Source of the DNA: a virus
Virus record (IMG/VR): IMGVR_UViG_3300032291_001597
Coordinates: 62,001 to 126,000 of that record
Reading direction: 5' to 3' (one strand)
DNA: 64,000 nucleotides
Position numbers and translations under genes: made by a program. The notes below the pieces were generated by a model that was given only the letters and a program-made list of their open reading frames with translations, did not search any database and was not told the DNA's origin. Within the stretch, counting starts at the first letter, position 1. Every line of letters begins with the position of its first letter. Below are positions 18,449 through 45,315 of this stretch, piece by piece.

Positions 18449-21400
18449 ATGGCAATCAATCCGTACGCAGGAGAGAACTCGTTTCTTGCTCGTTCTGCAA
18501 GAGCGAAACGTCAGCGACGCGACCGCAAGGGTCGCTTTGCTTGGATGGGTGGCGCTGCCCGCTTCTTTCTAGCGGTCGAGGGTGTTGGCAAGGGTTTATC
18601 TATTCCAAGTCGCTTTGCTGGCTATGACAAAAAATCTGACTCTTTTGATTTGGAACTTCAGGATGCTGAAGATATTGCCAAGTACGGAAAACTTGTCCGC
18701 GTTCCTGCCTCCAAGGTAGAGGGTCTCAAGGCTTATCTAAATCTTCCTAGCCTCGGCAAGCGAACCCCCACTAACGTTGAGAGCGACGTTCTTGTTAGCC
18801 CAGATGAAATAAAAAAGATTGATGCCCCTTCTGGTTGGAACCTTACTAAGACCGAAAATGGCGTCGAGTTTTATGAGTCTGAAGATGGTTGGATAGCAGA
18901 AAAGTATTCGAATTTAGATGCTTACAAAAAGTCTGGAAAGTCCCCCAACAAGTTCAAGGGTTCTGGCGTAAACGGCGTTCCGCAATCTAGTCAGCCCGTT
19001 TATCACGTTTATCGCAATCCTAAGGCAGATGCCTTGATGTATGACGATTCTGTAAGGTTCGGAGACGTTTCTGTCGCTGCTCAGACTTGGGGCGACACTC
19101 AAGCCGTTGTCGAGAAGTTGGCTAGAAGAAAGTCCGACTCTTTCAAGTCTAATTTGTCTTCTCTGCGTGCTTTGCCTTCGGCTTGGACTGACTATGACCC
19201 CTCTAGTCGTGGCTTGTTTAGTGACACTAAGTGGACGCTGTACAAGTATGAGTCTGGTAAGACCCCGACCCCCGCAAGAATTATGAAGATGTCTTCAATT
19301 CAGCGTAATAATTTATATAAGAAACTTAGCGAAAACCTTCGCAATCCCGAAGCGACCGCTAATTGGTATAAAGATGACCGAACCCTGAGAACCTCTTTCC
19401 AAGTACGTCAGATGCCCGTGAATAGCGCAGATGCTAGGACGGCTTTGAACAAGGCTCGCGTTGAAGGCAAGAAAATACAGACTTTTGATGGGACCAGTAA
19501 GTTGGACCCGAAGGAAGACGTTCTAGAACTTAGTTACTACAAGACAGATGGCAGTGAACCGATTGCTTACTTCCAAGACTGGGAAGATTTAGAGGATTGG
19601 ATTGAGGAAGAACGCTTTTCCGCTAAGGAAAAACTTAAAAAAGAGCAAGAAGCCGCTAAAAATCTAGAGCCTATGCCCAGAAGGGCTATGGAACTCCCAG
19701 ATAGAAGCGATAGCGACATAATTCAGGACTTGGAGCCTGTTTCTACGCCTGCTATCTCTAAATCTTCTTTCTTCAAGACTGAAAATTCAGATTTTGAAGG
19801 CGTTGCCAGTGAAAAAGCAGATAATCCTCGCTCTAGTAAATACATTGACGGTCCAGATGTTGTAAACGAGATAATGAATGAGGCTGCCAAGGTTGCTTTT
19901 GAGCAGGGCAGGTTCCCGATTCCTAGAAAAGGAGGTATCTCCACCTCCGCAGACGGCAAGTTTTTGGCTCCCGACGTCAAGATTGCGTTACAACGCCAAT
20001 ACAAGCGTGTTTTTGACTATTTGAAGGAGTCAAATCCAGACTTTATGGCGAACTATGACACTTTTGATAAGTTTTGGGCTGATGTAGATAAAAATAGCGT
20101 TAGTACGTCTACTCCTTTTGGCGATGGACCAGAAAGTGAGTTCCGTCAGACTGTAAATAAGGCATACGCTAAAGAAATACTTGGGCTAGATGAAGACGGA
20201 TTCATTGAAGTTTATCGAAACTCGATTCGTGGTGGTAGTAGAGAAGGTCAGTCTGAAGTAGACGCGGCCGCAGGATACTCGTCGCTCGACAAAAATATGG
20301 CTTGGGACTACCAAAGCCAAGCCACTGGAGATGGCCCGTTCTCTGGACGTTACTCAATCAAGGTAAAGCCTGAAGAGTATGGCGGAATGATTGGTCATAG
20401 CGGTGGTTTGGATGAATTTGGCGTAGTTCTAGGTAAAAACGTGACCAGTATCGATGGTCGCATAGAAAAGCACGGAAAATTAGAGACTTTACCGATTTTA
20501 GATGGAGTAACTTTCGGTGCTAGGGGCACTGGCGGCGGCCCATACAGATTTTTCAATGAAGGTTTTAGGTTTATTAAGCCAGCGGGCGAGTTTGATTACA
20601 CAAGTTTTGACGACCTTATTGCCCGCGCTGGTGGAAAAGACAAAGTTAGAGCCAAGATTTCTGAATTCTGGCCTAATACCACTTTTGACAGAGTAGAAAA
20701 AGATTCTTTTGGTTTGAATGGCAGTTCTTTCGAGAAATACATAACAAAACTTCCTAACGGCAAGGCTATTTTTAATCCAGCATCCTTGACTTTGACCGAG
20801 TCTGGTTTCGGCGCTGAAGGTATTGACCAGAGGGGTGACCGAATGGACAACGTTCTAAAGGGAGCGTTGGCTTTCCAAGAATTAACTGGTCAAAAAATTA
20901 TTGAGTGGCGTCGCGGTGGGAATCCATTTACCGATAAGAAGGCTTCTACAGCCCCAGAGACGACTGCAACTACCGAGAGGGCAGGAATTAGAGACCTATC
21001 TGGTTTCAAGCCCACAGGAGGTCCTCTAGGGTCTAATGAAGGTGGCACCTACGAAGATGCTAACGGCAACAAAATCTATGTCAAGAAGCCGAGAACAAAA
21101 CTTCACGGAGAGAACGAAGTTCTTGCTTCGATGCTTTATGAACGCTTAGGTGTCAACACAGCGAAAATTCGTTTTGGACGTTTAGAAGATGGCACTGAGG
21201 TAACTTACTCAGAGTGGATTGACTCTAAGAAAGATTTGCGACAAAGGCTGAGCGACCCAGAGTATGTCCAGAAGATTCAAGAAGGCTTCGGTGTGGATGC
21301 TTGGCTTGCCAACTGGGACGTCGCTGGTGGCGCGTTAGACAACATCGTCACTGACAATAACGGTGACCCTGTTCGCGTTGACCCAGGTGGTGCTCTTTGG

Positions 21401-24400
21401 TTCCGCGCTCGCGGTGAAGCGAAGGGTGATGCTTTCGGCGAAAAGGTTGGAGAACTAGACACTCTTACTGACGGAAGCAATCCTCAGTCGAAGTTAGTTT
21501 TTGGAAGTATGACTAACGACGAGAAGCGCGACGCTGTCTCGGACCTTATAAATATTTCTCCTGACGAAATCGAGAGACTAGTAAATCAAAATATCTCTGA
21601 CCGTGGCGTTGCCCAGAAAATGTCAGAGACTCTTATTGCTAGAAGAAAGAACGCTCTAGATAGATTTGGTATATCTGATTCAGTTCCTTTGGCTACCCCT
21701 AGACAAGCACCTTTGTTTGGTCCGAGAAGAGAGCCGAGACATCGCAAGCGTAGAATCAGTGGATACAAATACTTAGTTGACCGCCGTGGCGTCCACTACC
21801 CAAGCAAGCCTCTAAGTGCTCAGGACTATTCTGACCTTAGGGCAGGTAGAGCGATGCCTAAGCATCTGCCTTTTGCTTTTGCTCCTACTAAAAATGGAAA
21901 CGTTCACTACCTAGATAGCAACGGCAAACTCCACTGGGGGCAGTACGGCGCTGCTGGCGCTTTGCTACGTCGCAAGAACCCTGAAGGTGACTACGAGTAT
22001 CTGATGATTCAGAGAGGTAGAACTTCTACTGGACCTGGTAGGTGGTCATCGCCCGGCGGAGCACACGACAGTTTTGACGATTCTCAGAACCCAGAAATTA
22101 CGGCGAAGCGAGAATTGCAAGAGGAAGTCGGGTTGAACCTCGAAGACAGAATTCCTTCTTTTGTTTTGAGAAAAGAAGACGCCCCCGACTGGGCCTACAA
22201 CATGATTGTTTATGACGTTGAGTTTGGAGAGTTTGACAGAATTGCGTTGGAGCGCGACAAAAAAGGCAGGTTAGTTGGAGATGCCATCGACGCTACTTGG
22301 CTAGACATTGATGAAATCAGATACATGAAAGACCGCGGGATGCTTCACGATGGCTTCTCTTCTGACTTGATAGAACAAATCAACGAAGACAACGTCGGGG
22401 CTGGAACGATTGAGTTGATTTCTCCTATTCGTTATGCAAGAAGTAGAGTTCCTCAAGATTTGGGCGTTGAGTTAGTTCCAGCAACTATGGACAACAACAG
22501 AGTAAAAGCGCCTTCTAAGCCTTTTACTGGTTCTGTAGAGCGCGAGTTGGACGGGCTTACTAAGCAGGAAGCCATCGAAAAACTTAGAGGTATGGAAATA
22601 TCTTTCATCGACTTCGAAACCAACGGTATCGACGACTTCGATGGTGACTTGAATGGAAACAGACCAGTTCAGGTAGGTATAGTAAAAGTCAAAGACGGCA
22701 AAGTCATAGACAGACTAAACGTTTATATGAATCCAGGTGCTCCGCTTGGAGAGTGGTCTAGTAAAAACTTGCAGAGAGATGTAGTTGCCCCTGATGGCAG
22801 TAGAACTCCCACTTTAGTTACTGACGCATGGTTGAAGAAACAAATTAGCCAAGATGATGCTCTAAAGCAGATAACTGATTTTATGGGCGAGAACCCTATC
22901 GTTGGCGGTCAAAACGTTTTGTTTGACTTAGAGATTCTTGACCGAATGGCTGGCAACGCTGGTTCCGATTACAAGGTTTCTGGAACTGTTGATTCAATGA
23001 CTTTGGCTGAATATTTATTGCCTAGATACGACTCGACTAAGGGAGTGGACGGACCTAAAAAGAAGAACGCCGACGGCACTTTTACTCCAAGTTATAGTTT
23101 GGGCACAATCACTCAGTTCCTAGGATTTGAACCAACTAAATGGCACAGCGCAGACGGCGACGCCGAAGACTCGGCTTCTATGCTTTCTAAGATGCTCGAG
23201 CGAGCCGAGAATGACGACTCGATTGGTAATGACGCTTTCAACTCGGATTTGAATACAGAACGTTATCGCGATGGACTAGAGAAATATAAAGCCGCCACTG
23301 ACCCAGCCAGTCCTTCTACTATAAAGCAGAACGAGGGTTTGGAAAAGATTTTGGCTAAGTACCCAGCCTCTCCAGAAAAAACAGAAGCACTTAGAGCAGA
23401 CGTAGGGATTGCCACTAGAGGTGGCGCTACTGAAATTATGCAGGAGTATGTAGAGGCTGAAGAGGCAAAGAGAAGGCGCTACGATAACGACCCAGAACTA
23501 GACCAGATTAAGAGGGAAGTGTTTGGCTTGGCTGTAGGTCTGCCGACTGACACCAATGACTCGTCTAATCCTTATCTGCAGGGTCCTATACGTGACTTAG
23601 GTATTGAACTCTTTCCTAACCTAAGCCCATCAGAGAGACCAGAACTAGTTCAGGCAACACCCGAGTGGAAAGAACTGAATAAAAAAGTCACGGCTGCTGG
23701 CGCTGTACTAGGCAAAAAAGTCAGGGATGCTGTAACTGCCGAGCACAAAGAAAACTACGGAACTGACCCGTATCAAGAACTCGAGTCGTTAGATAAAAAA
23801 GTTTTAGATGCTAAAGACTTTTACTATAAGAAACTAAAAAACTCTAAAGCAATCTTTGCTAGATGGCGTAGTGGCTGGTTGGCTAGAAATCGCAATAACG
23901 TTGAAACCGTGTCTGCCCAACTGCTTGCTGAAATGAATAGAAACGAAACACCAAACGACACTAATGCATTGGGACGTTCACCTGAAATTTATGATGAACT
24001 ACTAAACATCAAGGCTAGTTCTGCCAATGACCAAGAGGCGTTAGCCAAAATTTTTGAAGTTTTTGTTCAGAGCAAGGTCTCTGATGAAAAAATATTTCTT
24101 TCGCTAAGGCAGGGGGCTAGAAGTGGAGGTATTAGACCTGGAACCCCAGACCACAACGATTGGCTGGCTCTTTCTGAGGTCTCTATGGCTAGGAACAAAC
24201 TGGATGGACTAAAAACAAAGCAGTCAGATTTGGCAACTAGGGTATCGACTTTACAGGCTATAGAGACTAGAAGACTACTGAGCGCGTTGGGCGTGGAGTT
24301 CAATCACGGTGTCCAGATAGAAGCCCAGTTCGGAAGACCCGGTCAGGTTTTGGCTACTTTCAATCCAGCCACTGAAAAGTGGGAAAAAACATTTTCTCCA

Positions 24401-25219
24401 CTGGATGAAGATAGACAAGAGATGCTTGTCGAAGAATATGGTTTTGAAATACTTGAAGAAAAAAGTGCTAGGGATGCTTTGAATTTTGGAACCGATTCTC
24501 TTCCTAAATCTTTGGTCTCTTTGATTAGTAGGAGAGTATCTAAAAATGGAAACAAACTTCAGTTAAGTGTAAATTCAAGAGGCGGAACTGTAGTTATTAG
24601 AAACGACAGTTCTACTGGAAAAGCCTCTAGAAACCCTTTTCTGGAAGAAATTAGTGCTGACTCGGTTGTTTCTCTGTCGGTAAGTCCTAGTTCGACTGGT
24701 ATGCCTAATGCTGGAGAGATGGGTGGGGCCGCTCTGCACGAACTAACGCACTTGATGGCAGAGACTGTAAAAATGGCTTCTTTCCTAGAGTGGGCAAAAT
24801 TAAGCGAATTAGGTTTAGAGAAAACGAAGCCAGATGGCTCACCTGATGTCCCCCTGATTAGGGCAGACTCGGTTGACAAGTCGGAGGCTGGCTCTTCTAT
24901 TCCTGCCGAATTGATGGACAGAGCAAAAATTATGGCACTAGAAGCGGGCATACCGCTCAGCACTATTCTGAGATACGCTGGAAAGTTCAATACCGACTCC
25001 ACAGGAATGAGGGTTGGCTTTGGGCCTAACAGCAACGGAGAACTTTTGACGACAGTTTTGGAGAGCCTATTGAGTGGTACTACTGGAAACTTGATTAGGA
25101 ACCACGAAACAGAGAGGTTCGAGAGAGACTCGAATTCTCCAGTAGTAGACACTGGCCTAATGGACTGGGGCTTGGCTTCGCTACTATTATTAGACGCATA
25201 CGCTAAGGGACAACTCTAG
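18449..25219 (+). CDS. Giant multidomain (polyvalent) protein 1
   Basis: 2256 aa. ATG at 18449 lacks a clear ribosome site; coupling to the upstream gene is likely. Domains seen in order: N-terminal tag ending QRRDRKGRFAWMGG (22-35); ADP-ribosyltransferase-like region (585-665; VYRNSIRGG, GYSSLD at 609-614, E656); kinase-like domain (865-1080; D957, N965, D978 in NWDVAGG, DNIV, VRVDPGG); Nudix hydrolase (1165-1310; Nudix box ends R1221-E-L-Q-E-E-V-G-L); DnaQ-type exonuclease with the full DEDDh set D1388, E1390, D1493, H1566, D1571; and an HExxH metallopeptidase signature H2097-ELT-H2101. Such mixtures are known as polyvalent proteins of phages and conjugative elements, thought to enter the cell with the DNA. 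The substrates are unknown. Confidence 0.85.
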   Translation: MAINPYAGENSFLARSARAKRQRRDRKGRFAWMGGAARFFLAVEGVGKGLSIPSRFAGYDKKSDSFDLELQDAEDIAKYGKLVRVPASKVEGLKAYLNLPSLGKRTPTNVESDVLVSPDEIKKIDAPSGWNLTKTENGVEFYESEDGWIAEKYSNLDAYKKSGKSPNKFKGSGVNGVPQSSQPVYHVYRNPKADALMYDDSVRFGDVSVAAQTWGDTQAVVEKLARRKSDSFKSNLSSLRALPSAWTDYDPSSRGLFSDTKWTLYKYESGKTPTPARIMKMSSIQRNNLYKKLSENLRNPEATANWYKDDRTLRTSFQVRQMPVNSADARTALNKARVEGKKIQTFDGTSKLDPKEDVLELSYYKTDGSEPIAYFQDWEDLEDWIEEERFSAKEKLKKEQEAAKNLEPMPRRAMELPDRSDSDIIQDLEPVSTPAISKSSFFKTENSDFEGVASEKADNPRSSKYIDGPDVVNEIMNEAAKVAFEQGRFPIPRKGGISTSADGKFLAPDVKIALQRQYKRVFDYLKESNPDFMANYDTFDKFWADVDKNSVSTSTPFGDGPESEFRQTVNKAYAKEILGLDEDGFIEVYRNSIRGGSREGQSEVDAAAGYSSLDKNMAWDYQSQATGDGPFSGRYSIKVKPEEYGGMIGHSGGLDEFGVVLGKNVTSIDGRIEKHGKLETLPILDGVTFGARGTGGGPYRFFNEGFRFIKPAGEFDYTSFDDLIARAGGKDKVRAKISEFWPNTTFDRVEKDSFGLNGSSFEKYITKLPNGKAIFNPASLTLTESGFGAEGIDQRGDRMDNVLKGALAFQELTGQKIIEWRRGGNPFTDKKASTAPETTATTERAGIRDLSGFKPTGGPLGSNEGGTYEDANGNKIYVKKPRTKLHGENEVLASMLYERLGVNTAKIRFGRLEDGTEVTYSEWIDSKKDLRQRLSDPEYVQKIQEGFGVDAWLANWDVAGGALDNIVTDNNGDPVRVDPGGALWFRARGEAKGDAFGEKVGELDTLTDGSNPQSKLVFGSMTNDEKRDAVSDLINISPDEIERLVNQNISDRGVAQKMSETLIARRKNALDRFGISDSVPLATPRQAPLFGPRREPRHRKRRISGYKYLVDRRGVHYPSKPLSAQDYSDLRAGRAMPKHLPFAFAPTKNGNVHYLDSNGKLHWGQYGAAGALLRRKNPEGDYEYLMIQRGRTSTGPGRWSSPGGAHDSFDDSQNPEITAKRELQEEVGLNLEDRIPSFVLRKEDAPDWAYNMIVYDVEFGEFDRIALERDKKGRLVGDAIDATWLDIDEIRYMKDRGMLHDGFSSDLIEQINEDNVGAGTIELISPIRYARSRVPQDLGVELVPATMDNNRVKAPSKPFTGSVERELDGLTKQEAIEKLRGMEISFIDFETNGIDDFDGDLNGNRPVQVGIVKVKDGKVIDRLNVYMNPGAPLGEWSSKNLQRDVVAPDGSRTPTLVTDAWLKKQISQDDALKQITDFMGENPIVGGQNVLFDLEILDRMAGNAGSDYKVSGTVDSMTLAEYLLPRYDSTKGVDGPKKKNADGTFTPSYSLGTITQFLGFEPTKWHSADGDAEDSASMLSKMLERAENDDSIGNDAFNSDLNTERYRDGLEKYKAATDPASPSTIKQNEGLEKILAKYPASPEKTEALRADVGIATRGGATEIMQEYVEAEEAKRRRYDNDPELDQIKREVFGLAVGLPTDTNDSSNPYLQGPIRDLGIELFPNLSPSERPELVQATPEWKELNKKVTAAGAVLGKKVRDAVTAEHKENYGTDPYQELESLDKKVLDAKDFYYKKLKNSKAIFARWRSGWLARNRNNVETVSAQLLAEMNRNETPNDTNALGRSPEIYDELLNIKASSANDQEALAKIFEVFVQSKVSDEKIFLSLRQGARSGGIRPGTPDHNDWLALSEVSMARNKLDGLKTKQSDLATRVSTLQAIETRRLLSALGVEFNHGVQIEAQFGRPGQVLATFNPATEKWEKTFSPLDEDRQEMLVEEYGFEILEEKSARDALNFGTDSLPKSLVSLISRRVSKNGNKLQLSVNSRGGTVVIRNDSSTGKASRNPFLEEISADSVVSLSVSPSSTGMPNAGEMGGAALHELTHLMAETVKMASFLEWAKLSELGLEKTKPDGSPDVPLIRADSVDKSEAGSSIPAELMDRAKIMALEAGIPLSTILRYAGKFNTDSTGMRVGFGPNSNGELLTTVLESLLSGTTGNLIRNHETERFERDSNSPVVDTGLMDWGLASLLLLDAYAKGQL

Positions 25220-25227
25220 GGAAAATA

Positions 25228-25566
25228 ATGAATGAAATCGCTTATTACAGCATCACTTTGAAAGACGGTAGTGAACTCTACTGGACTAAATCATTTGGGC
25301 TAAACGTCTTCGTAAACTACTTGGAAAATAAGGAGTTAGACGAAACTAGCGACGCTTTTCAGTTGGCGCTTGATGTCGAGGTCTTTATGACATCTGGTGG
25401 GGACTCTTTTTCATTCAAGTATCTTGACGCTAGTATAAAGAAAGACATAAAAGACCCCGTAGCAGTGAAATTAGCAATTCTAAAGTTTTACCCTGACGCA
25501 GTGTTTTCTAGCACCGCGCCTAACACAGATGGTTTCACTAAAAAATCAGGAAACGTAGTCAACTAA
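25228..25566 (+). CDS. Small protein following giant protein 1
   Basis: 112 aa, ATG at 25228, 8 bp after the giant gene, weak ribosome site (GGGAAAATA). Acidic, with beta-like starts (IAYYSITLKDGSELYW) and a helical middle; ends FTKKSGNVVN. No family is recognised. A comparable small acidic gene (38849-39127) follows giant 2, so each giant may have a partner or chaperone; this is an inference from position. A weak TATACT (25601-25606) lies after it, upstream of giant 2. Confidence 0.6.
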   Translation: MNEIAYYSITLKDGSELYWTKSFGLNVFVNYLENKELDETSDAFQLALDVEVFMTSGGDSFSFKYLDASIKKDIKDPVAVKLAILKFYPDAVFSSTAPNTDGFTKKSGNVVN

Positions 25567-25658
25567 AGGCAAGCAGTCAATAGCAATACAATAAAGTTGC
25601 TATACTGTTTTTTATACAGATTGACGCTGACTGTAGTCGTTTTAGGAGAAATTTTCAT

Positions 25659-28600
25659 ATGACTGACGCTTTCGGGCTGTCCCACCCTGACGACTCGCCA
25701 ATTGTCGCAGCAAGCAATGCTTACTCTGGTAAGAACTCGGCAGCAGCGAGACGTCTTAGAGTAAAACTTCAGCGCCGTGACCGTTATGGCCGCTGGGTCG
25801 AGATGGGTGGCGTACTCAGTTTCAAGGTGCGCGTCAATGGCGAAGTTCAGACCAAGATTGGTCGAGCAGTTGGTGGCTCCCAGCGTGACGGATATATTCG
25901 CGTCGTAATTCCAGAAGGTCAGGGCATTAGACCCGGCACTTACCACATCTCTGAAAAGGTATCCCGCACTGCTAAGGCGATGCTTGGCGAAGAATACCTA
26001 GAAGAAAAGGGCGTCAAGGTCGATGCTAACGGAAACAGTATTGGCGAAGTACTTGACCGTGATATTGAAGATGTTAAGGACCTGTTTAGAGAAGACACTT
26101 CTGACCTAGACCGCGCGCTGCTTGACGGAGTTCTGAGCGAGGACGAAAAGTCTGCCCTAGAAAAGTCACGCAAGACTGCCCCTACCCACAAGTCTTACAA
26201 CGTTGTGGACGAATCTGGTAAGCGCGTCGACGAGGACGAGGTCGGTGGACTGGACTTCACTGACATCGCAGACTCTAGGAACTGGCGTCTACGTAAAAAC
26301 AGGGATGGCTCAATCAAGTCTGGTAAGTACCTTTCTCCAGACAAGAAACTAAGAGCAGAAATCTACCAGACCGAGTCTGGCAAGACCTACATGAAGGTGT
26401 CTTACCCTTCAGATAAGAACCTAATTGAGAACGAAGAGGTTGGTGCTCTTACCGAGGACGACCTACTTGGTGACTCTCGCAACCTAAGCACTGGCTACGG
26501 ACGTTCGCTAGATAGCGTCGACAAGACCGTGAAGGGCGCTAAAGCCGTTCTACCTGCTCCAGATAAAGAAGAGCAGAAGAAGATTGACGCAGAGCGCAAG
26601 GCTATGGAGGACTTGGTAAAGGCTTCGCCAGTGCGCGAGTCTTACGCTATGCCAGAACTTTACATGGCTGAAGCAACTGACGACGAACTCTTTGCTCGAC
26701 TAAAGTCCTTGGAAGAACGAGACACCAACAATGACTCGCTATTTATTAAGGATGGAGAAATCCGCAACCTTAGGGCCGAGCGCGAGAGCGTAATTATTGA
26801 CGACATCCGTCGTGAACTAAAGGGCCGTGGCTTGGCTATTCCTAAGTCAGTAAAGCCTGCTAAGCGTCCACTAAAGAAGCCAGCAAAACCTTCGGAGCAA
26901 CCAGACAACTGGCTAAGCGCCCCTAGCCTCCGCGTTGGAGACCAGATTGTTGACGCTGACGGCAAGCGTAAGAAGATTGCTTCCATCACCCCTGAGCCAG
27001 AAGGCGACCGCGCACTAATCAAGTTCGCTGATGGTAGCGAAAGAATGTACGAGGGTGAAGAACTTGTACAGATTGCTAGCAAGAGCCTAATCAAGGAAGA
27101 CGTTCCAGTAGAGCCAGTTGCACCTAAGTTCCCTGACGCTAACCGCTCTAACGTTTACGACAACGCTGCCAAGGCTCTTGGCATTACGCCAGAAGAACTC
27201 AAGGCTGACGAAAGAATCTTTGACGCTGTAGAGCACACTTCGGACCTTATCGACAAGCGCCAAGAAGACGCTTTGCCAGAGTTTATGGGCGAAGACGGGA
27301 CCACCAGACTCTACAGTTCTTTGACTGATGCTATTGCTAAGCACTACGCACTGACTAAAAACGGCGAACTTTATGAGCCAGAGCCTTTGGGCAGAGATAA
27401 CAAGGATTTGCTGGAGAAGGCTCGCGCTGGCGGGGCAACCATCAATCCGCTCAGCCGACGCAACAGGCTTCAGGGCTGGGCCGTCGCTGTTAGAGGCAAC
27501 AACGACGAGATTATTGACACCGTGGCTCTTGAGGACGGTATCGGCGACCTACTTATGAATGACTATGTCAATAGAAACATTGACAAGTTTGGCGGAAACA
27601 AGTATCTTGGTCTTTGGCACGATAAAAAGAACCACGAATTGGTATTTGACGTCAGCGAAGTTTTCAAGGAGACTGATGTTGAGGCAGCAACCAAGGCTGG
27701 GCAAGATAGAAACCAAAAAGCCATCTTCAACCTAAGAACTTGGGATGAGATTGAAACAGGAGGAACTGGAGACAATGGAAGAGCAAGAGAAGAGCGTGAA
27801 TCAGCGCGTCTGGGCGGAGATAAGCCCAGAGGAGTGGAAGAACCTGAGCCAGCGAGAGCAGATTCTGCGGATGAAGAGCGCACGCCTGTCTCTGATTCAG
27901 GAGTCGACGGAGCAAGAGCCGAGGACGAGCAAGGACTAAGCGATAATCTTCGCGAACTTCCTTCTTATCTTCGAGACAACCTATTAGAACTCTTACCTAC
28001 TGGCATTTATGAGTCAGACAAGAAATCTATTGGGGAGAACATTGACAGGCTAGAGAACTCTCTTGATAAGGGTAGTTCTGCAATTACTCAGGCTTTGAAG
28101 GCACTAAGCCGTTCTTTGGCTAAAGCAGAGAAAAAGCAAAACGAAAAAGACGCCGACAACCGAGAGGTCGCTGACCTACTCGACGAAACTATTATGCAGG
28201 TCTCTCTTGCACACAACTACGCTAAGTCAATTACCGTAGCACCTTCGGCACCTGGTCAACCAGAAGGTAAACTAACTCAACCGGGTAGCGCAAGTAGCAG
28301 AAGGATTAGCCCTTCTAGCGACGGTAGCGAATTCATAGCAGTTCCTAGGATGGCTAGGGATTCTGGTGGAGGCACTGACGACTCGATTTCTGATTTGTCA
28401 GATATCGTTGACGACACTGACCCAGAGATTGTTCGCCAACTTAGGGCGATGGATTTGGCTGTTGATTATGACAGTCTTAGTGATTCTCAAAAAAATACTT
28501 ACAACAACCTAAAAACTTTCCAAGAGAAGGCGGTTAGGGCTTTAACTATTTCTGCCGTCTCAGACAATATGGAAAAGTACAAGCGCCAGCGCACGATTGC

Positions 28601-31600
28601 CCTGAGTGTTACTAGGGCACTTAATGGATTTATTACTGCCATCAACACTGGTAATCCAAGAGAAGATTATATTTCTAGCGGTTCTCTGGAAAACAGAACT
28701 AGAAACCTGACTTTTATCGAAGACTCGATAACTACTAAAACTGGTAGAGACACTAGAACTACGATTATTAATAAAGCAAAGGCAATTTTTGTTGCTCGCG
28801 ATGGCGGGGTATATGAAATTAGCATAGACAGTCACAACGCTGACATTGTGGCAAGACAACTTGATGCTAGCGGAAATTATGTGACTCTTCGCAGTGGTAC
28901 GGAACGAGCAGCATTCTTAAATCAATACGGCGGTAGTGGAGACGGGTTCCACTCCGAGGACGATGGATATTTAGACCCGTATAGCCCTAATTCCGATAAA
29001 ATTAGGCCCGTTACTCCAGGAATGATTAGAACAGACGACTCTGTTCAATCAAGTGGATTGGGAGGAGCGCTTTACGCTTTCCTAGGCTATCTACACGACC
29101 AAAATGGTCGTGGATTTATGCACAGTGCTCATTTGCTAGGACCTGGCAATATGGCAAGCAAACTTGTAAATAAAAACCTAAAGTATCACAACCCATCCCA
29201 GAGGGAAAAAGCCCTTACAGTAATAAATCCTAATTCCGACATTATTCAGTCAATGAGTGACGCTGGCTGGTTTGGTCGCAGTTACAATGCTTTCACTACT
29301 TTGACTCTGTATCCTGGTAGCCACAGTTCGCTGGACATTGCTGGAAAGATGACGTTCCAAAACTTCCTAAAGCCTTTGGACGGTAGCCTCGGCGGTGGGA
29401 ACAACATCGGTCCACTTTGGAATATGGACAAATCTATCCACGAACTTGCAGACCTGCTTCACGACTCGATTTCTATGGAGTCACCTGACGTGGCTGACTA
29501 CTTTAAAGAGTATTTCGATGGCAACAGGGAAGACTGGGAACTAATAAGCATCCAAGGCACTCTTCTTGACACTGCCTTCTTGGGCGGAGCGACCAAAGAA
29601 GATGCTCTTACTAAGTTACGTAACCTAAAAAAGGTTACAGATTCACTCTTGTCCCCCGATGCTCGCATACCTGCTAGGGGGAACGTCAAGAAGATTGCTA
29701 CTGGTCTATCTGAGGCTCTAAATCAACTAATTCCTGCTATCGATGCTAGAAGTTTTGATGACAGCACTAGGGTAGAGCGTCCTAAAGACATGGACTTCAA
29801 GTCGTTTAGCAAGGTCTTCGCTGACCCGTTTGAATCTAAGAATGGCTATGAGCCGTTTAGAACCGACTTTATTATGCCAGAGGGCGTTCCTCCTATTGAC
29901 TCTTCTGATTCATATATGCCAAAGAGAAATTACCCTAGTGAGTGGATAAACTCAGACGTTCCTGCCCCTAGTTCTTGGAGCGACGAAGGCGGAACCCTAG
30001 AACTACAGTCAGAGGAAAGATTGGTTGGTGCTTTAAGAAAGAGCATACAAAATAAATCTGACTTGGCAGTTATGGATTTTGATGGCGTAGACCGAAACAT
30101 CCAAGCACGCTCTATTTATGATGCGCTACGTCGCAAGAGCCTAGACCACAATATGATTCTCGCCAAACTTTACGACGAGGTTTTGGGCGGGAACGAGAAC
30201 CAAACAAGACTAGAAGAGTTTAGAAGAACCGCCCCGTCTCTTAAGAGCGAGGCTGCCGAACTAATCGAGTCCGTTGGAATCGTAGTTCCGCCAGCAGACT
30301 TTGAGTTTGGTGGTATGTACGACGAGGATGCCCATAAACTTTCCGCTGGCTCCGCAGTCTATGATGATGAAGTCACTGGAGAGGGTTTCGGTCTCCAACT
30401 AACCAAACTTTCGGAGAACGAGAACCTACGTACACCTAACTACGCGACGTTGGACCGTAAGCCCTACGTTAGCGTAGATGAAGCGGACAACTGGTCCCGC
30501 TTGGGAACAAGTGACAATCCTAGAATTATTGCTAGAAACTTCTCTCGCTCTGGGCTGTCTCAGGGGCTTGTTAGTGCTCTAAAGAGAAACAGTAGTTATG
30601 TGAACCTACAGTTTGCTAATGGCACAGAGAGAAGAATCTCAATTCTTGCAATTAGAGATGCGCTTCAGCACCAAGGCGTAGACACTAACGCGCTTCTAAA
30701 GTCCGCTGGGGCGACTAGGGTTCGCGAGTACATCAGGTCTGTGAACGTGGCAGATAACGGTGAAAGAGTGACCAACACTTTCAAGGTCGGAGAAAAGCCA
30801 GGCTTTATAAGAACTAACACTTACGCTAACCCAGAGGCAGAGTCTAACGGGCGAGCAACTGTTCTTATCGATGACCCTAATGCAACTTCTTATGATTCTT
30901 TGGGTTCTGGTTCTAAGGTTATCGGTCTCACTCGTTTAGACACTACGGCAGACCCGTTGCGACCTTACGCTGTAGTTTGGTTCGGTAAAAAAGATGCTGT
31001 CGCACTAAGCAGATTCAATGTTGAGGACCACGGCAGTAGAGTTGTAGAGCGCTATGAGACAAGAGCAGAGGCAGACGCCGTGCTTGGCGATTTGGCTAGA
31101 GACGATATGTTCTTTGTCGACCAGATTATGCAGGACTCGGCAATCCTGCCTCCACTAAAAGTTACAAAGAGACTTCCTTCTACTTTGCCTATGACGGAGA
31201 GACTTCTGGGTTCTAGGACAATCAGCCACCAAATTGGAATTATTGACCCTAGAGTTGTCCACTTTTCCGACAACAGCGGGGTGCCTGGGGAAGGCGGTAA
31301 GGACGACCTGTTCCGTGATGACAATGGCAACATACTTGCAACCGTAACTGCTAACGAAGACGGACAGTTCCAAGCCAAAGTAGACTCGCTCACCGAAACT
31401 TTTACTGACAGACAAATTGCTCAGCGGTGGGCTGGCGAAGAGTTGGCAAGAAAATTAGAAGCAAATCTAAACCTTGCTGATAGTAGTAAAGTCCCTGCGG
31501 AACGACCTAAGAGAGTTTTGTCTGGCTACGAAGAGTCAGAAACTCTAAAGACTGACCTAACTCTTTCTACTTATGGAGTTCTTTACTACAACGAAGGCTC

Positions 31601-34600
31601 TGTAGTAAGAGCCATTAAGGTTACTGGTCAGCGGGCTAAGGCTTCTCCTTACAGAAGAGCCGAACCTGATTACCGACTTTTGTCTGTTAGCGTCACTGAC
31701 CCGTCCAATCCTACTGTTAGTAAGTTTAACTTAGGGATTAGTAGAACTGGTAGAAGCGAATGGTACCTAACTGCTAGTGGTGGTGAAGTAGCGGTCGGCG
31801 AGCCTATGAATGTATCTAAAGTCTTTACCTCGCCAGAGGCAGCGATAAAGCAGGCAAGAAAACTTTCCGAGGACCGTCTAGGAAAAGACATGGTCCCTGA
31901 CTTTGGTCCTATTGGATACAAGTCTTTGCCAGATGAAGTAATTCCTAGCCTCCCTAACGCCAAGGACTTGGATGAAGTGCTTACCCACGCTTCAACCGTT
32001 ATTGACTCGACAGATGCGGTCGAATTATCTAGTTTGAGTGGCGTGAATGGTGCCAAAAAAATTCAACTACCAGACGGAAGAATATTTAAGCGTAAAGGTG
32101 GTGGCATTACTTCTGGTCCTGCGGGCATTAGAAACGCAGAGAACAAGAGAAGAGTAGATGCTGAAGTATTTGCTCACGCTGTCTATAACTTTGCTGGAAT
32201 CCAAGCAACTAACGCACAAAAGGGTAAAAACGGCTCCGCTCCTGTAGTCATGGACCCTTGGGTGGATGTTGACGGTAGCAAAAATTGGATGAAAATCACC
32301 GAACGTTCTGGGTCTGGCACCCAAATTGGTGAAGACGTTCAGCGCGGTTTTGTGCTCGATGCTCTATTTGACAATCGTGATGTTGCTACTAACTCTGGAA
32401 ACATTATTGTCGGAACCGATGGTCGCGCTCGCCGTTGCGACATGGGTGGTGCTGGTCTGTTTAAGGCTGGTGGAGACCGCGGTGTTAGGGCAACTACCTT
32501 CCAGGCTGATAGAGGAGAATCTTCTGTAGATTTTTATATGGGCAACTATATGGACTGGAGCCGTTCTACTGTCTACAAAGGTTTTAGTGAAGAGAAGCGT
32601 AAGCAATACGCTATCGACCACCTAGCCCCTCTTACTGACGAGGCGCTAGACAAACTTGGTGCTCTTATCGAAAACGAAGAAGACAGGAAGAAAACTCTTG
32701 ACACTCTAAAGGCTCGCAGAGACGGTATTCTCCGCAAGTTGGGAATTGACATCGAGGAAGAACGAAGAAAGCGTGCTGGTTCATCTGCCGCCGAGCCTGA
32801 GTCTGAAGATGTTGTAGAAGTTCCAGACACTTCAGAAGAAACCATCGATGAGCCATTATTGTTGGAAGAACCCGTACGCGTACCCGTACCTTCTGGTCCT
32901 AAGAGGGTAAGTATGGCTGACCGTCTGCCTTTGAAGAGAACTCCTGATGGAGTTTATTACCCAGAACGTCACTCAGACCTATTCCCCTACACTCAGAAGA
33001 TAAGAAACGGCGAGATTGTTCCTGAAGAACTTCCTTTCGCTTTCAAGCAACCTATACCTGTCATAGACGCTGGTGGATTCTATATGAGTACCCCACCGAG
33101 TTACGTTGACGCTAACGGAATCTACAGAACTTCTGCTTTCGGAACTTTCAATACTTTTATTAGAAGAAAGAACGCTGACGGAAGTTACTCAATCCTTGGA
33201 TTTGGCAGAGGCATAGGCGACAGAGAAGTTCTCGGTGGATTGATTGAAGATAGAGGTGCTTACAGCCACGACGCTGACGCTGAACACCTACGTCAAGTTT
33301 TGGATTCTAAAACTCACGGACTTGAGGGCAAAACTCCTGTGACGCACGAAGTGGAGTTGGCTCCTGGTTACAAGTCACGAGTTTCTATCTACGACTTGTC
33401 AGAAGATGAGGCTAGAGACTTGAACTTAGCCAATGAACGACTCCTCCCTACCGACGATGGTGGAAAATACAGAAACAGGGAGTGGATGCCCCTGAACGAT
33501 TTCTTAGAACGAATCTCTGACCCTGAGTGGATTGCCAACCCAGACAACCTTCAAGGACTTAGAGGCATCTTCTCTATGCCTACAATGCCACACCCACGGT
33601 CAAAGCCTCTAGGCGTGCCTCGTTCTGAAGATGAAGACATTGAAGTTGGAACTATCGAGTGGTCAAGAACCTCTGAGGTACTAGGTAAGTCTTATACAGT
33701 ATCTAAACTAACCAACGGAACTTACTCTATTAATGATTCGTCTGGTAAGACAATTGCTGAAGTGAGACCTGCTAAGGGGCTTTACAAGTTTGAAGCGTAT
33801 ATTCTTCCAAACAACATTGGCACTCCGGGCAACCCTGGAGCAAGACTAGCGTTCTTTGACAATGACAGACAAGCCACCGCTTGGGCTGGAGACTTAGCCA
33901 CAGAAATGATTGGCGGAGACAAAAACCTATTCAACGAATTAGGTGTTGGCGAAGTTGACTTAGGTCCTATTAGCCCAGTAGTTCACAAGGGCGGACACCT
34001 AGACAAGGCAACTGAAGACCAAATCGCTACGCTAACTAGATTGGTCAACACTAAAGAAATGGTCGGTGCTACTCGCGCTCAGTACAGAGAGCACCTAAGA
34101 AAGCCAAACCTTGTAAAGGGTGAGGTTGGTTCTTTGATTAGGCAACTATCTAGAACTCCAGACCGTAGCGATGATGTTACTGCTTCGGAGCGAGATGGCG
34201 AATCAGTAACTCCTTCGAAGCCAACCGATGGTGGCATTGTTCCACCTAAGGGTCCTTCGGGCGACGAAGATATGACCACTAGTCCTTTCATTAGAAAGAA
34301 GGCTTCCGAACTCGCACCTGGTGACAAGATTGTCAATGCTAAGGGTGAATACATCGGCAAGGTAGCAATTACCTACGTCGACAAGGAAAACGGCAAAGTT
34401 ACCGTTGCGATGATTGATAAGACTGGTGCTTCTGTAAACCTAGAAGAAGCCCTGATGGACGACTCTTACCTAGTCGACCCTAGAGTTCCAGCCGCTGTTG
34501 CCGTGCCTGAAGGTAAGGACAAGGAAGAGGGCGCTGGAGGCGCTGGTGGCGGAGACACCACTGCTCTACCTGGCGGACTAAGAGCGTTTAGGGCACGTAG

Positions 34601-37600: not shown

Positions 37601-38843
37601 AGCCAAGGAATGGGCTAATGGTCTAATCAACGGCGAGTTGCAGAAGTTCAATAATGGCGAAGAATCCGACTTGTTTAAGAAGCCTGTGGCTAATCGTGAC
37701 CCTAATATGCCAGACGTGTCACCAGAAATGATTGACAGATATCTAAGTGCCCCCGGTGTCTTTAAGCGTTTTGGTGGATTTGCCAGAGTCACCGAAGCAG
37801 ACATTGAAGTCTTAGAAAGAAACGACCCGACTGGAGAGTTCGGTAGATTTAGGGATTATGACGCTGATGCTCTAAGAGAGTTAATAAAACAAGAAGCAGC
37901 CTCTATTCCTTTCGATACCACTAAATTTGACGCTTCTACTATTCGTAAATTTAGAGAAGCATACGAAACCAGAAAGCGTAAGCAGATTGCCAACTATGTG
38001 ACGCGAGTAAACGGTAGGGCACAAGCATTTATAAGCATTATTAACGGTAACAGAGACCCCGAAAAGAGGGCTAAAGAACTAGACGCTTTTAGATACGCTG
38101 AAAACAGAATTGTGGACAGAATGTCTAGAGCAAAACTGGGCTACAACATTAGTTTTGACGCTCTTAAGCAAGTTCTAACTGCCCCAGACCCAGCAGAAAG
38201 AAGATTTAAAAACCAGTTCGAAACCAGAACTACTAGAGGGCACGACGCACACTATTCTGACCCACTAGGAATGAGCAGAAGAGGACCAGAACTTGAGTTT
38301 GGTAACGTTCCCATAGATACTGACTCCAAAAATAGACCTAAGTACGGTTTCCCATTAAATAATGGAGTGAATGGCATTGGAGAGGTCACCGACTTTGATG
38401 GCCCAGAGGACGTTCTAGGTTTTAGAAAAGTCTCCTCCGAGTTTGCTAGAGACTTAGATAAAAACCTAAACCGCGCTATGGACAATAGCACCGCGTCTCA
38501 CTACGGTGAAATTACTGTCGTGTTTAAGGACGAAGTAAAGTCTAGGACCACCCTAACTGCTTATGATTCTCTAGGCGCTAGCATATTGTCCGCTCCTATG
38601 GACAATATAACTAAAGAGAGCCTGTGGGCTGCTGGTATTAGAGATAACTTCCTTATGGTAGATAGCAACGGTAAAGTTAGTAGTGGTTACAGCAGTTACG
38701 CTGAAATTCAAATGCACGGTCTTTTGGGGCTAGATGATGTTGAGGTTATTTATGCCCCAAACGCCACTTCTCAGGAAAGATTAGAAAGCCTTTTACGTAC
38801 CCTTGGTATAGGAATAGAAGTCAAAATTAAGGGTAGGAGATAG
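25659..38843 (+). CDS. Giant multidomain (polyvalent) protein 2
   Basis: 4394 aa, 13.2 kb without a stop. ATG at 25659 behind TTTTAGGAGAA. The N-terminus repeats the tag of giant 1 (NAYSGKNS at 20-27, QRRDRYGRWVEMGG at 38-51). Three SH3-like GD-type segments lie near 425, 2885 and 3208. A kinase-like domain spans about 2140-2370 (D2241, N2248, D2261 in NRDVATN, GNIIV, CDMGG). A Nudix-like domain with a ruined box follows (2495-2550; EVLGGLIEDRG, no REUxEE). Degenerate tandem beta-rich repeats beginning LPEGY run from about 3330 to 4000. The end (4237-4394) resembles DUF3626 (E4349-I-Q-M-H). The large region 900-1700 is unrecognised. Probably a virion-delivered counter-defence or structural giant. 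Confidence 0.85.
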   Translation: MTDAFGLSHPDDSPIVAASNAYSGKNSAAARRLRVKLQRRDRYGRWVEMGGVLSFKVRVNGEVQTKIGRAVGGSQRDGYIRVVIPEGQGIRPGTYHISEKVSRTAKAMLGEEYLEEKGVKVDANGNSIGEVLDRDIEDVKDLFREDTSDLDRALLDGVLSEDEKSALEKSRKTAPTHKSYNVVDESGKRVDEDEVGGLDFTDIADSRNWRLRKNRDGSIKSGKYLSPDKKLRAEIYQTESGKTYMKVSYPSDKNLIENEEVGALTEDDLLGDSRNLSTGYGRSLDSVDKTVKGAKAVLPAPDKEEQKKIDAERKAMEDLVKASPVRESYAMPELYMAEATDDELFARLKSLEERDTNNDSLFIKDGEIRNLRAERESVIIDDIRRELKGRGLAIPKSVKPAKRPLKKPAKPSEQPDNWLSAPSLRVGDQIVDADGKRKKIASITPEPEGDRALIKFADGSERMYEGEELVQIASKSLIKEDVPVEPVAPKFPDANRSNVYDNAAKALGITPEELKADERIFDAVEHTSDLIDKRQEDALPEFMGEDGTTRLYSSLTDAIAKHYALTKNGELYEPEPLGRDNKDLLEKARAGGATINPLSRRNRLQGWAVAVRGNNDEIIDTVALEDGIGDLLMNDYVNRNIDKFGGNKYLGLWHDKKNHELVFDVSEVFKETDVEAATKAGQDRNQKAIFNLRTWDEIETGGTGDNGRAREERESARLGGDKPRGVEEPEPARADSADEERTPVSDSGVDGARAEDEQGLSDNLRELPSYLRDNLLELLPTGIYESDKKSIGENIDRLENSLDKGSSAITQALKALSRSLAKAEKKQNEKDADNREVADLLDETIMQVSLAHNYAKSITVAPSAPGQPEGKLTQPGSASSRRISPSSDGSEFIAVPRMARDSGGGTDDSISDLSDIVDDTDPEIVRQLRAMDLAVDYDSLSDSQKNTYNNLKTFQEKAVRALTISAVSDNMEKYKRQRTIALSVTRALNGFITAINTGNPREDYISSGSLENRTRNLTFIEDSITTKTGRDTRTTIINKAKAIFVARDGGVYEISIDSHNADIVARQLDASGNYVTLRSGTERAAFLNQYGGSGDGFHSEDDGYLDPYSPNSDKIRPVTPGMIRTDDSVQSSGLGGALYAFLGYLHDQNGRGFMHSAHLLGPGNMASKLVNKNLKYHNPSQREKALTVINPNSDIIQSMSDAGWFGRSYNAFTTLTLYPGSHSSLDIAGKMTFQNFLKPLDGSLGGGNNIGPLWNMDKSIHELADLLHDSISMESPDVADYFKEYFDGNREDWELISIQGTLLDTAFLGGATKEDALTKLRNLKKVTDSLLSPDARIPARGNVKKIATGLSEALNQLIPAIDARSFDDSTRVERPKDMDFKSFSKVFADPFESKNGYEPFRTDFIMPEGVPPIDSSDSYMPKRNYPSEWINSDVPAPSSWSDEGGTLELQSEERLVGALRKSIQNKSDLAVMDFDGVDRNIQARSIYDALRRKSLDHNMILAKLYDEVLGGNENQTRLEEFRRTAPSLKSEAAELIESVGIVVPPADFEFGGMYDEDAHKLSAGSAVYDDEVTGEGFGLQLTKLSENENLRTPNYATLDRKPYVSVDEADNWSRLGTSDNPRIIARNFSRSGLSQGLVSALKRNSSYVNLQFANGTERRISILAIRDALQHQGVDTNALLKSAGATRVREYIRSVNVADNGERVTNTFKVGEKPGFIRTNTYANPEAESNGRATVLIDDPNATSYDSLGSGSKVIGLTRLDTTADPLRPYAVVWFGKKDAVALSRFNVEDHGSRVVERYETRAEADAVLGDLARDDMFFVDQIMQDSAILPPLKVTKRLPSTLPMTERLLGSRTISHQIGIIDPRVVHFSDNSGVPGEGGKDDLFRDDNGNILATVTANEDGQFQAKVDSLTETFTDRQIAQRWAGEELARKLEANLNLADSSKVPAERPKRVLSGYEESETLKTDLTLSTYGVLYYNEGSVVRAIKVTGQRAKASPYRRAEPDYRLLSVSVTDPSNPTVSKFNLGISRTGRSEWYLTASGGEVAVGEPMNVSKVFTSPEAAIKQARKLSEDRLGKDMVPDFGPIGYKSLPDEVIPSLPNAKDLDEVLTHASTVIDSTDAVELSSLSGVNGAKKIQLPDGRIFKRKGGGITSGPAGIRNAENKRRVDAEVFAHAVYNFAGIQATNAQKGKNGSAPVVMDPWVDVDGSKNWMKITERSGSGTQIGEDVQRGFVLDALFDNRDVATNSGNIIVGTDGRARRCDMGGAGLFKAGGDRGVRATTFQADRGESSVDFYMGNYMDWSRSTVYKGFSEEKRKQYAIDHLAPLTDEALDKLGALIENEEDRKKTLDTLKARRDGILRKLGIDIEEERRKRAGSSAAEPESEDVVEVPDTSEETIDEPLLLEEPVRVPVPSGPKRVSMADRLPLKRTPDGVYYPERHSDLFPYTQKIRNGEIVPEELPFAFKQPIPVIDAGGFYMSTPPSYVDANGIYRTSAFGTFNTFIRRKNADGSYSILGFGRGIGDREVLGGLIEDRGAYSHDADAEHLRQVLDSKTHGLEGKTPVTHEVELAPGYKSRVSIYDLSEDEARDLNLANERLLPTDDGGKYRNREWMPLNDFLERISDPEWIANPDNLQGLRGIFSMPTMPHPRSKPLGVPRSEDEDIEVGTIEWSRTSEVLGKSYTVSKLTNGTYSINDSSGKTIAEVRPAKGLYKFEAYILPNNIGTPGNPGARLAFFDNDRQATAWAGDLATEMIGGDKNLFNELGVGEVDLGPISPVVHKGGHLDKATEDQIATLTRLVNTKEMVGATRAQYREHLRKPNLVKGEVGSLIRQLSRTPDRSDDVTASERDGESVTPSKPTDGGIVPPKGPSGDEDMTTSPFIRKKASELAPGDKIVNAKGEYIGKVAITYVDKENGKVTVAMIDKTGASVNLEEALMDDSYLVDPRVPAAVAVPEGKDKEEGAGGAGGGDTTALPGGLRAFRARSSYIIDQVKAAYPAAVQLPNGDLVIAERQYTERSRLRRTFKYQVVVHRLPNERFVAYAREVLLKPDGSIDPDYTPRAGRVTPQTHSPLALLNDIPPLLSGDGPEQGILKRNPRQWLSNSGDLQNEVVNPATGQLLPETLSPRVGEKFIGDTGIKTTGDGVKDALIGYIAELVDRGVLDRDIISRMTSGRQTALNKEQVIDLVERIEANRNFPGVNAIPYVARDNASIVRIGDKVRHYSPSGRIKEGVVMDRIQLVINRKPSGQYEYTDKVWVQFPGRAGWTEITTRNLEILKRKDGSDPLPAIDAETKRPISPIPPAAPETDRTPIPTRDGSGTPEASDEFLNGLDEFGDAHVDAMNGGHSKYGLPEGYKASVRAGGGMQVTQASGYTSGLFAPNPDGTVSVYFTYPGFVGINKSKTVATKTEAMRLVAEAMKIDAGLIPAPTNVHKKGEAVSVDDVYDYTGAEDSSGVVHEITRTGLSTTFSNPATGEKHPISVSNNLDGTWKVTGISGIGETLYSPSSRQEAEAVAISALSRGDSAPSAPAVDESSTPAPDFDAALASLSRDPVFNDKHVELMYREDAPEEFKIPIGYKATLSAAGEGLKLEHIDRPSDNLNATAFRKDDGSWEIRVNRPAGRMVTIPPIYRNRTASDPIDAIKMLNSDLKNAVKGAPHDGMSLEDRMVDLTNNDRFLEDMHTYLFTDTSLPTELRNRYKLPEGYSAVRRTSSGSYGSVFITKKDADGNTDPDSPIAEISGVIDGKRTITVWANDSDRMASRPVFEGRTALDPEHAIAMVSSDLRSAIQGRPPRDIKQYWDLGLSPAPAPASPEAPAVPSTPASPAVPSAPSLPEGYTVRGGEGDAPTIVRSNDMSKPYMRIEKSTDENGNEIFKGKVWNTGKDALDDLSPAEEKNFTDREKAMKWATRRAEDPSRIGKPDEPETKWDTDADGREILTVTGIEGSEDDNNPAALITDVPGVGTLAAVYNKKSGIGGTPYEVRTFRSRDEAKEWANGLINGELQKFNNGEESDLFKKPVANRDPNMPDVSPEMIDRYLSAPGVFKRFGGFARVTEADIEVLERNDPTGEFGRFRDYDADALRELIKQEAASIPFDTTKFDASTIRKFREAYETRKRKQIANYVTRVNGRAQAFISIINGNRDPEKRAKELDAFRYAENRIVDRMSRAKLGYNISFDALKQVLTAPDPAERRFKNQFETRTTRGHDAHYSDPLGMSRRGPELEFGNVPIDTDSKNRPKYGFPLNNGVNGIGEVTDFDGPEDVLGFRKVSSEFARDLDKNLNRAMDNSTASHYGEITVVFKDEVKSRTTLTAYDSLGASILSAPMDNITKESLWAAGIRDNFLMVDSNGKVSSGYSSYAEIQMHGLLGLDDVEVIYAPNATSQERLESLLRTLGIGIEVKIKGRR
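27775..27939 (+). CDS. Possible 54-aa gene nested in giant gene 2
   Basis: ATG at 27775 in the +1 frame relative to the giant gene, with AGGAGG at 27758-27763 and GGAG at 27768-27771 ahead of it. The product (VWAEISPEEWKNLSQREQIL, MKSARLSLIQEST) looks like an ordinary amphipathic helical protein. In the giant frame the same bases encode a low-complexity, probably disordered linker (RAREERESARLGGDKPRG), which would tolerate a second coding layer. It might be a true overlapping gene or a chance frame; no homologue is known to me. Confidence 0.35.
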   Translation: MEEQEKSVNQRVWAEISPEEWKNLSQREQILRMKSARLSLIQESTEQEPRTSKD

Positions 38844-38848
38844 AGGAC

Positions 38849-39127
38849 ATGGATAACTTGGAGATTTATACTCTAAAAGACGATACTGACCTATCGATTG
38901 TTTATGATTTTTCGATTGGCGAAATTTATTACGTCCACTTGGAAGATAAGAAAGACCCCGAGACTAAGTATCAGATAGTGCCGCTTGAATTTATTTTTCA
39001 AAAAATGCCTGGCGACTGGGAAATAATTAATGAAGGTAAACTAGAAATCAAACAAATAAGCCAAGAACAAGCAGAAGAGCAGGGCCTAGACGTGAGATTT
39101 TTTATAAAAGATGAGGTGCAAGGCTAA
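38849..39127 (+). CDS. Small acidic protein following giant protein 2
   Basis: 92 aa, ATG at 38849, 5 bp after the giant gene, behind GAGGAC. Beta-rich at first (DNLEIYTLKDDTDLSIVYDF, IGEIYYVHLEDKK), acidic at the end. No family is recognised. Its TAA overlaps the ATG of the next gene. It occupies the same place relative to giant 2 as 25228-25566 does to giant 1. Confidence 0.6.
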   Translation: MDNLEIYTLKDDTDLSIVYDFSIGEIYYVHLEDKKDPETKYQIVPLEFIFQKMPGDWEIINEGKLEIKQISQEQAEEQGLDVRFFIKDEVQG

Positions 39128-45212: not shown

Positions 45213-45292
45213 GTGGAGTGCCTCCACGCCCAGTTGCGTGCGTAGTCCCTTTTCACCTTGTACCGAAAGCGAATGAGTGAAATCCGCTCATT
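45213..45292 (+). other. Structured leader of the capsid mRNA
   Basis: Two hairpins precede the capsid start: GTGGAG (45213-45218) with CTCCAC (45222-45227), and AATGAG (45272-45277) with CTCATT (45287-45292). Together with the palindrome they fill the 142-base gap between protease and capsid genes. The second lies 13 bases before AGGAGG and could affect ribosome access. Confidence 0.5.
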
Positions 45293-45315
45293 TACAACTG
45301 TCCTTAGGAGGCACA

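Follow-up and report, generated by a model that had tools for sequence, protein, structure and literature searches.

By what route polyvalent effectors, long proteins that unite several enzymes, enter phage heads is an open question, and it is raised by two neighbouring genes, P1 and P2, in a 64,000-nucleotide stretch of DNA (positions 62,001 to 126,000 of the 132,624-bp virus record IMGVR_UViG_3300032291_001597), denoted here as the window. An earlier note on this DNA had described them as two giant open reading frames (ORFs) of a late operon. Their coordinates and lengths were confirmed (Table 1), and the operon turned out to be the head operon, in the order portal, ferritin/Dps-like gene, g194, P1, g112, P2, g92, g230, capsid maturation protease and major capsid protein. 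On balance, P1 and P2 are probably polyvalent effectors that are carried inside the phage head and expelled together with the DNA, and that bear toxin-like tips accompanied by candidate antidotes. This reading is based on the slot of both genes between portal and protease, on an N-terminal domain restricted, in the 18 records searched whole, to such cargo and to protease-size ORFs, which the protease itself carries and which is followed by unrelated enzymes (including ArdcN and MPTase-PolyVal), and on a kinase fold with a homologue annotated as particle associated. Its toxin and antidote part is based on the joint divergence of the C-terminal ends and g92, and on small gene families that follow their module.

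The key element is a domain of about 130 amino acids (aa), referred to here as the tag domain, which is common to P1, P2 and their counterparts in phage DSL-LC01, Microbacterium phages Cece and Pumpernickel and Arthrobacter phage Mimi. It contains the motif R-x3-A-x2-Q-x-R-D-x2-G, followed in most members by [RK][FW]..MGG and then by a beta-rich-looking stretch, and a looser form (HPRGADGRF..KGG) is found in Gordonia phages immediately ahead of the kinase. The capsid maturation protease contains a related domain, as well as another related motif near its end. A g194-like domain of some 180 aa precedes the tag in the same polypeptide in DSL-LC01 and numerous uncultured phages; the g194 of the window is 39% identical to residues 22-181 of the 3289-aa DSL-LC01 protein and 100% identical to the copy of a close relative. 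No Pfam or PHROGs profile for MuF, portal or T4-like head domains matched the N-termini of P1 or P2.

When the tag profile was run over the window's own record, P1 and P2 were the sole matches at E<=1. In 18 phage records searched whole, the tag was found only in long cargo ORFs and, more weakly, in ORFs of protease size, these weaker matches being assigned to the protease by ORF length and place and directly checked only at the loci that were read; the smaller tagged cargo genes in these records were two, WJZ48507 (466 aa) and Mimi gp79 (805 aa). IMG/VR was also scanned with sequence as the sole criterion, blind to context, which yielded 501 stretches with the pattern and 330 confirmed relatives, the best 80 loci being read. 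There, a portal gene was present upstream on the same strand for 83 of the 97 tagged ORFs lacking a protease-core match, and the tag was located at residues <=40 or 120-210 in 88 of the 93 tagged ORFs with a visible start; the other five, with the tag at residues 326-364, are probably for the most part N-terminal protease halves. Relatives encode one, two or three tagged giant proteins with shuffled modules, and the domains found elsewhere behind the tag comprise ArdcN, MPTase-PolyVal, UvrD helicase, RNase_T, GNAT, zeta toxin, DRAT, ADP-ribosyltransferase (ART) exoenzyme, Nudix, sigma-70 region 4 and pentapeptide repeats. Since the head protease shares this domain with head-operon enzymes that are otherwise unrelated, the domain would be best explained as a prohead-loading domain.

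Both P1 and P2 are real genes, as they remain open (2258 and 4479 aa) in the close uncultured relative IMGVR_UViG_3300032323_001487, with ratios of non-synonymous to synonymous divergence (dN/dS) of 0.17 and 0.24, respectively, denoting purifying selection. The host is probably an actinobacterium, perhaps from fresh water, because the closest matches of the window protease are Actinomycetia phage DSL-LC01 and large Microbacterium phages.

Regarding the enzymes proposed for P1, the Nudix domain matches its Pfam family above the cut-off and retains the REUxEExGU core as RELQEEVGL, with a longer loop before it, and the exonuclease passes the RNase_T cut-off narrowly, its DEDDh residues being read in FIDFETNG, NVLFDLEIL and WHSADGDAED. 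The kinase-like domain belongs to a family that Pfam hardly detects, in which the Gly-loop and the K, E, D, N and D residues are invariant. Searches of PDB profiles with the kinase, ART-like and tag alignments gave no matches, and the kinase was settled by structure instead: its AlphaFold model (mean predicted local distance difference test score, pLDDT, 84.8) matched the solved kinase CtkA in Foldseek (6.9e-7), with HipT and CotH also among the matches, so that according to the model it is a HipA-fold kinase. A kinase of the C-lobe-less type of Iyer was rejected, because a helical part is present at the C-terminus of the model, whose best matches are CtkA and HipT. The R / S-T / E pattern of the ART-like region is kept in eight homologues, and its best PDB matches, all with E above 2, include true ARTs (C3, VIP2) below significance. 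In the C-terminal module, the HExxH motif and a downstream GE are invariant in six homologues. The modules of P1 are found separately and in other orders in other phages, and among the PADLOC defence and anti-defence models only those for Nudix and exonuclease regions matched P1, with none matching P2, g92 or g112.

The kinase family is widespread in phages, with 526 confirmed viral stretches and 57 genome loci. In the record of Yersinia phage fHe-Yen8-01, the annotation 'particle associated' is given to the giant kinase-bearing protein and to the products of the two genes that follow. At loci L011-L016, from Pseudomonas, Yersinia, Aeromonas, Morganella and Enterobacter phages, P1-type kinases are located in giant genes often annotated as ADP-ribosyltransferase, and in several of them the neighbour is a distinct gene with a NUDIX or phosphatase annotation. 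A FAHxxGYxLxxGRW-like motif is common to the N-termini of these giant proteins and a KGYxRxDGxYVxPH motif to their neighbours; both are perhaps other loading signals. Genomes of Pseudomonas of the P. syringae group and relatives (five loci), as well as many uncultured gut bacteria, also carry the family; none of the matches in cellular genomes is tagged and only one has a portal nearby, so they say nothing on packaging. In two viral contigs the kinase match contains a stop codon (L161, 8001-8765; L175, 8001-8753), which could reflect disrupted copies, errors of sequencing or an alternative genetic code.

P2 is related to P1 both at its N-terminus (52% identity over 44 aa) and along the kinase-Nudix stretch (3e-13), the two kinase profiles aligning at 8.3e-33 in hhalign; since these parts are common to both, sequence comparison indicates that the proteins are partial paralogues. 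The kinase attributed to P2 by the earlier note was thus upheld. The Nudix-like part is indeed homologous to that of P1, but the catalytic Glu motif has been lost, which makes the nucleotide destruction that had been suggested for it unlikely. As for the DUF3626-like end, the attribution stands by way of its homologues: six of the seven aligned members match the DUF3626 profile (best 3.4e-11), and the window copy, below threshold, aligns with them. The YxEAQIHG motif of P2 also gave a weak alignment (E 0.058) to the solved chain 7dn8 ('putative cytoplasmic protein'), which we take to be SopF. DUF3626 is the domain of SopF (PMC6682159). ADP-ribosylation by SopF is reported in other work. A further block of P2, residues 1391-1700 (29829-30758), appeared in 85 BLAST rows over the cargo proteins read and is nearly as widespread as the tag.

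Comparison with the close relative indicates that the C-terminal ends are exchangeable modules. The tag, the ART-like region, the P1 kinase and the protease are 97-98% identical, with a synonymous divergence (dS) of about 0.2. In contrast, the HExxH end is 65% identical (dS about 1.1) and the DUF3626 end 46% identical (dS about 2.8), and the raised dS points to replacement rather than just to fast protein change. At P2, nucleotide identity drops from 97% to about 52% and then recovers, and the limits of this tract (Table 1) take in g92; g92 is 34% identical in the relative, and the adjoining g230 is 98.7% identical. Other stretches of P2 are also mosaic with respect to the relative.

In the loci read, moreover, each of the two small families follows one kind of module. 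When 23,448 ORFs of 243 stretches were searched with a profile of each, the g92 family was found only behind DUF3626 cargo, including two loci outside the seed, while the g112 family was found only behind HExxH-ended cargo, including three such loci. At the locus in two genomes whose P2-like protein lacks DUF3626, no g92-type gene was present. In a fresh scan for DUF3626, in which some loci overlap with the earlier ones, a small ORF with the RGYW motif was found behind 10 of 65 complete non-redundant genes and a looser form behind five; RGYW occurred in only 14 of the 3,685 small ORFs of these loci. By these sequence criteria, the small partner is real for a subset of DUF3626 genes and not for all, and the simplest reading is that g92 and g112 would be cognate antidotes. 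At locus L236 (6746-7571), a stand-alone DUF3626 ORF of 202 aa, followed by an ORF of 71 aa, lies just after a P2-like gene and is possibly a detached or decaying tip module.

These observations could be integrated in a mechanism of four steps. In the first step, the domain shared with the protease would dock P1 and P2 inside the prohead by the protease's own contact, and in the second both proteins would exit with the genome, perhaps cut up by the head protease or by the HExxH domain. Once in the cell, the HipA-fold kinases would phosphorylate, and the DUF3626 end, possibly together with the ART-like region, would ADP-ribosylate, their presumed targets, while the Nudix domain would hydrolyse nucleotide-diphosphate compounds and the exonuclease would trim nucleic acid, leading to early reprogramming of the host. 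Finally, the C-terminal modules would act as exchangeable toxin-like tips that g112 and g92, to which linkage was observed, would neutralise during virus building.

Several other explanations have to be weighed against this one. The giant proteins might be head-borne and yet mainly structural, as internal head or ejection parts held by the tag, with enzymes serving maturation or DNA entry. The place in the head operon and the domain common with the maturation protease would agree with this notion, as would the scaffold-like recurrence of the P2 block at 1391-1700 across many cargo proteins; however, the modules are of host-directed kinds (zeta toxin, ADP-ribosyltransferase, ArdcN, GNAT) and are freely shuffled, and we regard a structural role as unlikely. 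That the proteins are not packaged, being late cytosolic enzymes merely held at the assembly site by the tag, seems very improbable: it is in line with the fact that no virion data, proteomics included, were found for these phages, but it conflicts with the annotation of a kinase homologue as particle associated and with published examples of ART, Nudix and MuF proteins that are packaged in heads (PMC9503650). The earlier note had viewed P1 and P2 as an injected pair devoted to countering host defence. For phages, an action of Nudix and ART domains on defence signals has indeed been proposed (PMC9503650), and the polyvalent class to which the note assigned both proteins is supported. Nevertheless, the Nudix of P2 is degenerate, partial paralogues with the same N-terminal domain that number from one to three among relatives do not support a pair, toxin-like ends with small partners point to host takeover no less than to counter-defence, and none of the domains tested indicates a particular host defence, so that counter-defence goes beyond the evidence and this view appears quite unlikely.

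With regard to the small genes, they might be chaperones or loading adaptors of the terminal modules, or passengers in the same recombination tract, which is possible, if doubtful. Chaperone genes likewise adjoin and co-diverge with their client modules, and a single divergent tract at P2 spans the module and g92. Hitch-hiking nevertheless fails as an explanation because each small family keeps to a single kind of terminal module in phages that otherwise differ, and an adaptor for tag loading would be expected to follow the tag and not the terminal module. The reading of P1 and P2 as packaged effectors with toxin-like tips has in turn a number of points against it, beginning with the lack of virion data just mentioned. 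The tag domain is defined by sequence; the seeds of its profile all came from genes of the slot, and the relatives read were the best 80 of 330. The model of P1 residues 421-740 (pLDDT 68.7) gave no significant fold match, also among viral models, and for the HExxH end no significant Pfam or PDB profile match to a zincin fold was obtained. Of the P1 signatures listed in the earlier note, the Nudix and exonuclease held by profile and the HExxH held as a motif, and the structure prediction that it had proposed as a check bore out the kinase and left the ART-like region with no significant structural neighbour. In addition, the divergence of g112 is mild (84% identity in the relative), and a recognisable small partner accompanied only 15 of the 65 DUF3626 genes.

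The resemblance to known systems is partial. Polyvalent proteins are multi-enzyme proteins encoded among virion genes (Iyer et al. 2017, PMC5512222), and P1, with its Nudix, exonuclease and kinase, likewise combines several unrelated enzyme domains in one long polypeptide, with the portal upstream of both giant genes and the protease and capsid protein downstream; hallmark PolyVal domains were not found in P1 or P2 by Pfam search, although tagged relatives in the same slot carry ArdcN and MPTase-PolyVal. Unlike the proteins of that work, which according to its authors lack the layout of a delivery domain plus a C-terminal toxin, P1 and P2 match this layout in part, with an N-terminal domain common to the protease and exchangeable C-terminal modules with small partners. 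MuF polymorphic toxins (Jamet et al. 2017, PMC5576092) are similar in having a head-linked N-terminal part, a variable C-terminal toxin part and a small gene behind, as g112 and g92 are directly behind P1 and P2, but differ in that P1 and P2 have another N-terminal domain, without a MuF match, and many modules per protein. The P2 end shares with the DUF3626 protein SopF (PMC6682159) the family that its homologues match; in contrast, it is the C-terminal tip of a giant protein in a phage head operon, with a small partner behind. The P1 kinase resembles HipA/CtkA-like kinases in fold and active-site residues, while it stems from a separate, widespread phage family and resides inside giant proteins. 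The capsid targeting sequence of phage T4 is a short peptide, in contrast with the N-terminal domain common to P1 and P2, a putative loading signal, possibly cleaved, of about 130 aa with a beta-rich part. If the tag does load prohead cargo, P1 and P2 would be comparable to the T4 internal proteins and Alt (PMC3012670, PMC9958956). Head-packaged ART and Nudix proteins, for their part, are an established idea (PMC9503650), which P1 and P2 fit by domain mix and place.

In a wider form, to which we would give slightly less than even credence, large actinophages would possess a dedicated head-import domain for the protease and for giant cargo, able to bring in nearly any enzyme placed behind it. 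They would employ it for effectors resembling polymorphic toxins, whose C-terminal tips swap together with antidote genes, including DUF3626, of the SopF family, with a new antidote family. No description of the domain shared by protease and cargo, or of a DUF3626 partner gene, was found in the literature searched, an incomplete collection, so that the novelty of what is added to the earlier note, a candidate loading domain defined by sequence and small genes linked to modules, is provisional. Cargo is predicted by a single sequence domain, shared by the maturation protease, both in cultured phages of Microbacterium and Arthrobacter and in uncultured ones, and the loading question therefore becomes testable. 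If the proposal is true, proteins of choice could be loaded into the heads of actinophages, and a route would open to many new effector and antidote families in poorly annotated viruses.

Table 1. Features of the head operon in the window (positions are those of the window).
Feature	Position	Strand	Evidence or remark
Portal protein	15584..17347	+	phrog_776 9e-102; upstream border of slot
Ferritin/Dps-like gene	17356..17853	+	Pfam 8.5e-17, phrog_3636; follows the portal, ahead of the cargo genes
g194	17861..18445	+	separate gene, stops just ahead of P1
P1, polyvalent-type protein, 2256 aa	18449..25219	+	
P1 N-terminal tag domain, residues 1-150	18449..18898	+	alignment; profile match 1.1e-37
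P1 ART-like region, residues 421-740, unproven	19709..20668	+	R / S-T / E pattern
P1 HipA/CtkA-fold kinase, residues 847-1127	20987..21829	+	AlphaFold/Foldseek, conserved residues
P1 Nudix domain, catalytic core present	21953..22318	+	Pfam NUDIX 1.4e-8; RELQEEVGL
P1 DEDDh exonuclease	22604..23179	+	Pfam RNase_T 4.2e-5; phrog_192 1.4e-22
P1 C-terminal HExxH module, residues 1902-2256	24152..25216	+	65% identical to relative
g112, small partner gene of HExxH module (candidate antidote)	25228..25566	+	
P2, polyvalent-type protein, 4394 aa	25659..38843	+	
P2 N-terminal tag domain, residues 10-150	25686..26108	+	alignment; profile match 1.8e-51
P2 kinase, homologous to that of P1	32085..32858	+	
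P2 Nudix-like domain without catalytic Glu motif	32976..33578	+	
Divergent tract, DUF3626 end of P2 and g92	~37640..~39140	+	nucleotide identity 97% to ~52%, then recovers
P2 C-terminal DUF3626 module	38103..38831	+	homologues match DUF3626
g92, small partner gene of DUF3626 module (candidate antidote)	38849..39127	+	
Capsid maturation protease	39843..45173	+	phrog_859, phrog_18402; downstream border of slot
Tag-like domain within protease, ~residue 350	40875..41132	+	profile comparison with cargo tags 1.8e-7, probability 93.7
Second related motif near protease end	44691..44753	+	QPRDEAGKFRKVLARLKQDLG
Major capsid protein	45277..47370	+	

Some additional observations concern the surroundings of these genes. 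The linker between protease and polyprotein (about 41300-41400) contains a long run of Gly-Thr repeats (GTGTGTGTG...). The ferritin/Dps-like gene is 97% identical in the relative and its product is possibly a further head or DNA-protecting component. Farther upstream, a gene of the histone deacetylase family is found at 8219-9253 (+; Pfam Hist_deacetyl 3.5e-47), a superfamily that also holds acetylpolyamine amidohydrolases, and a dual-specificity phosphatase-like gene on the opposite strand (13015-13575, -; Pfam DSPc 1.7e-11) adjoins the terminase.
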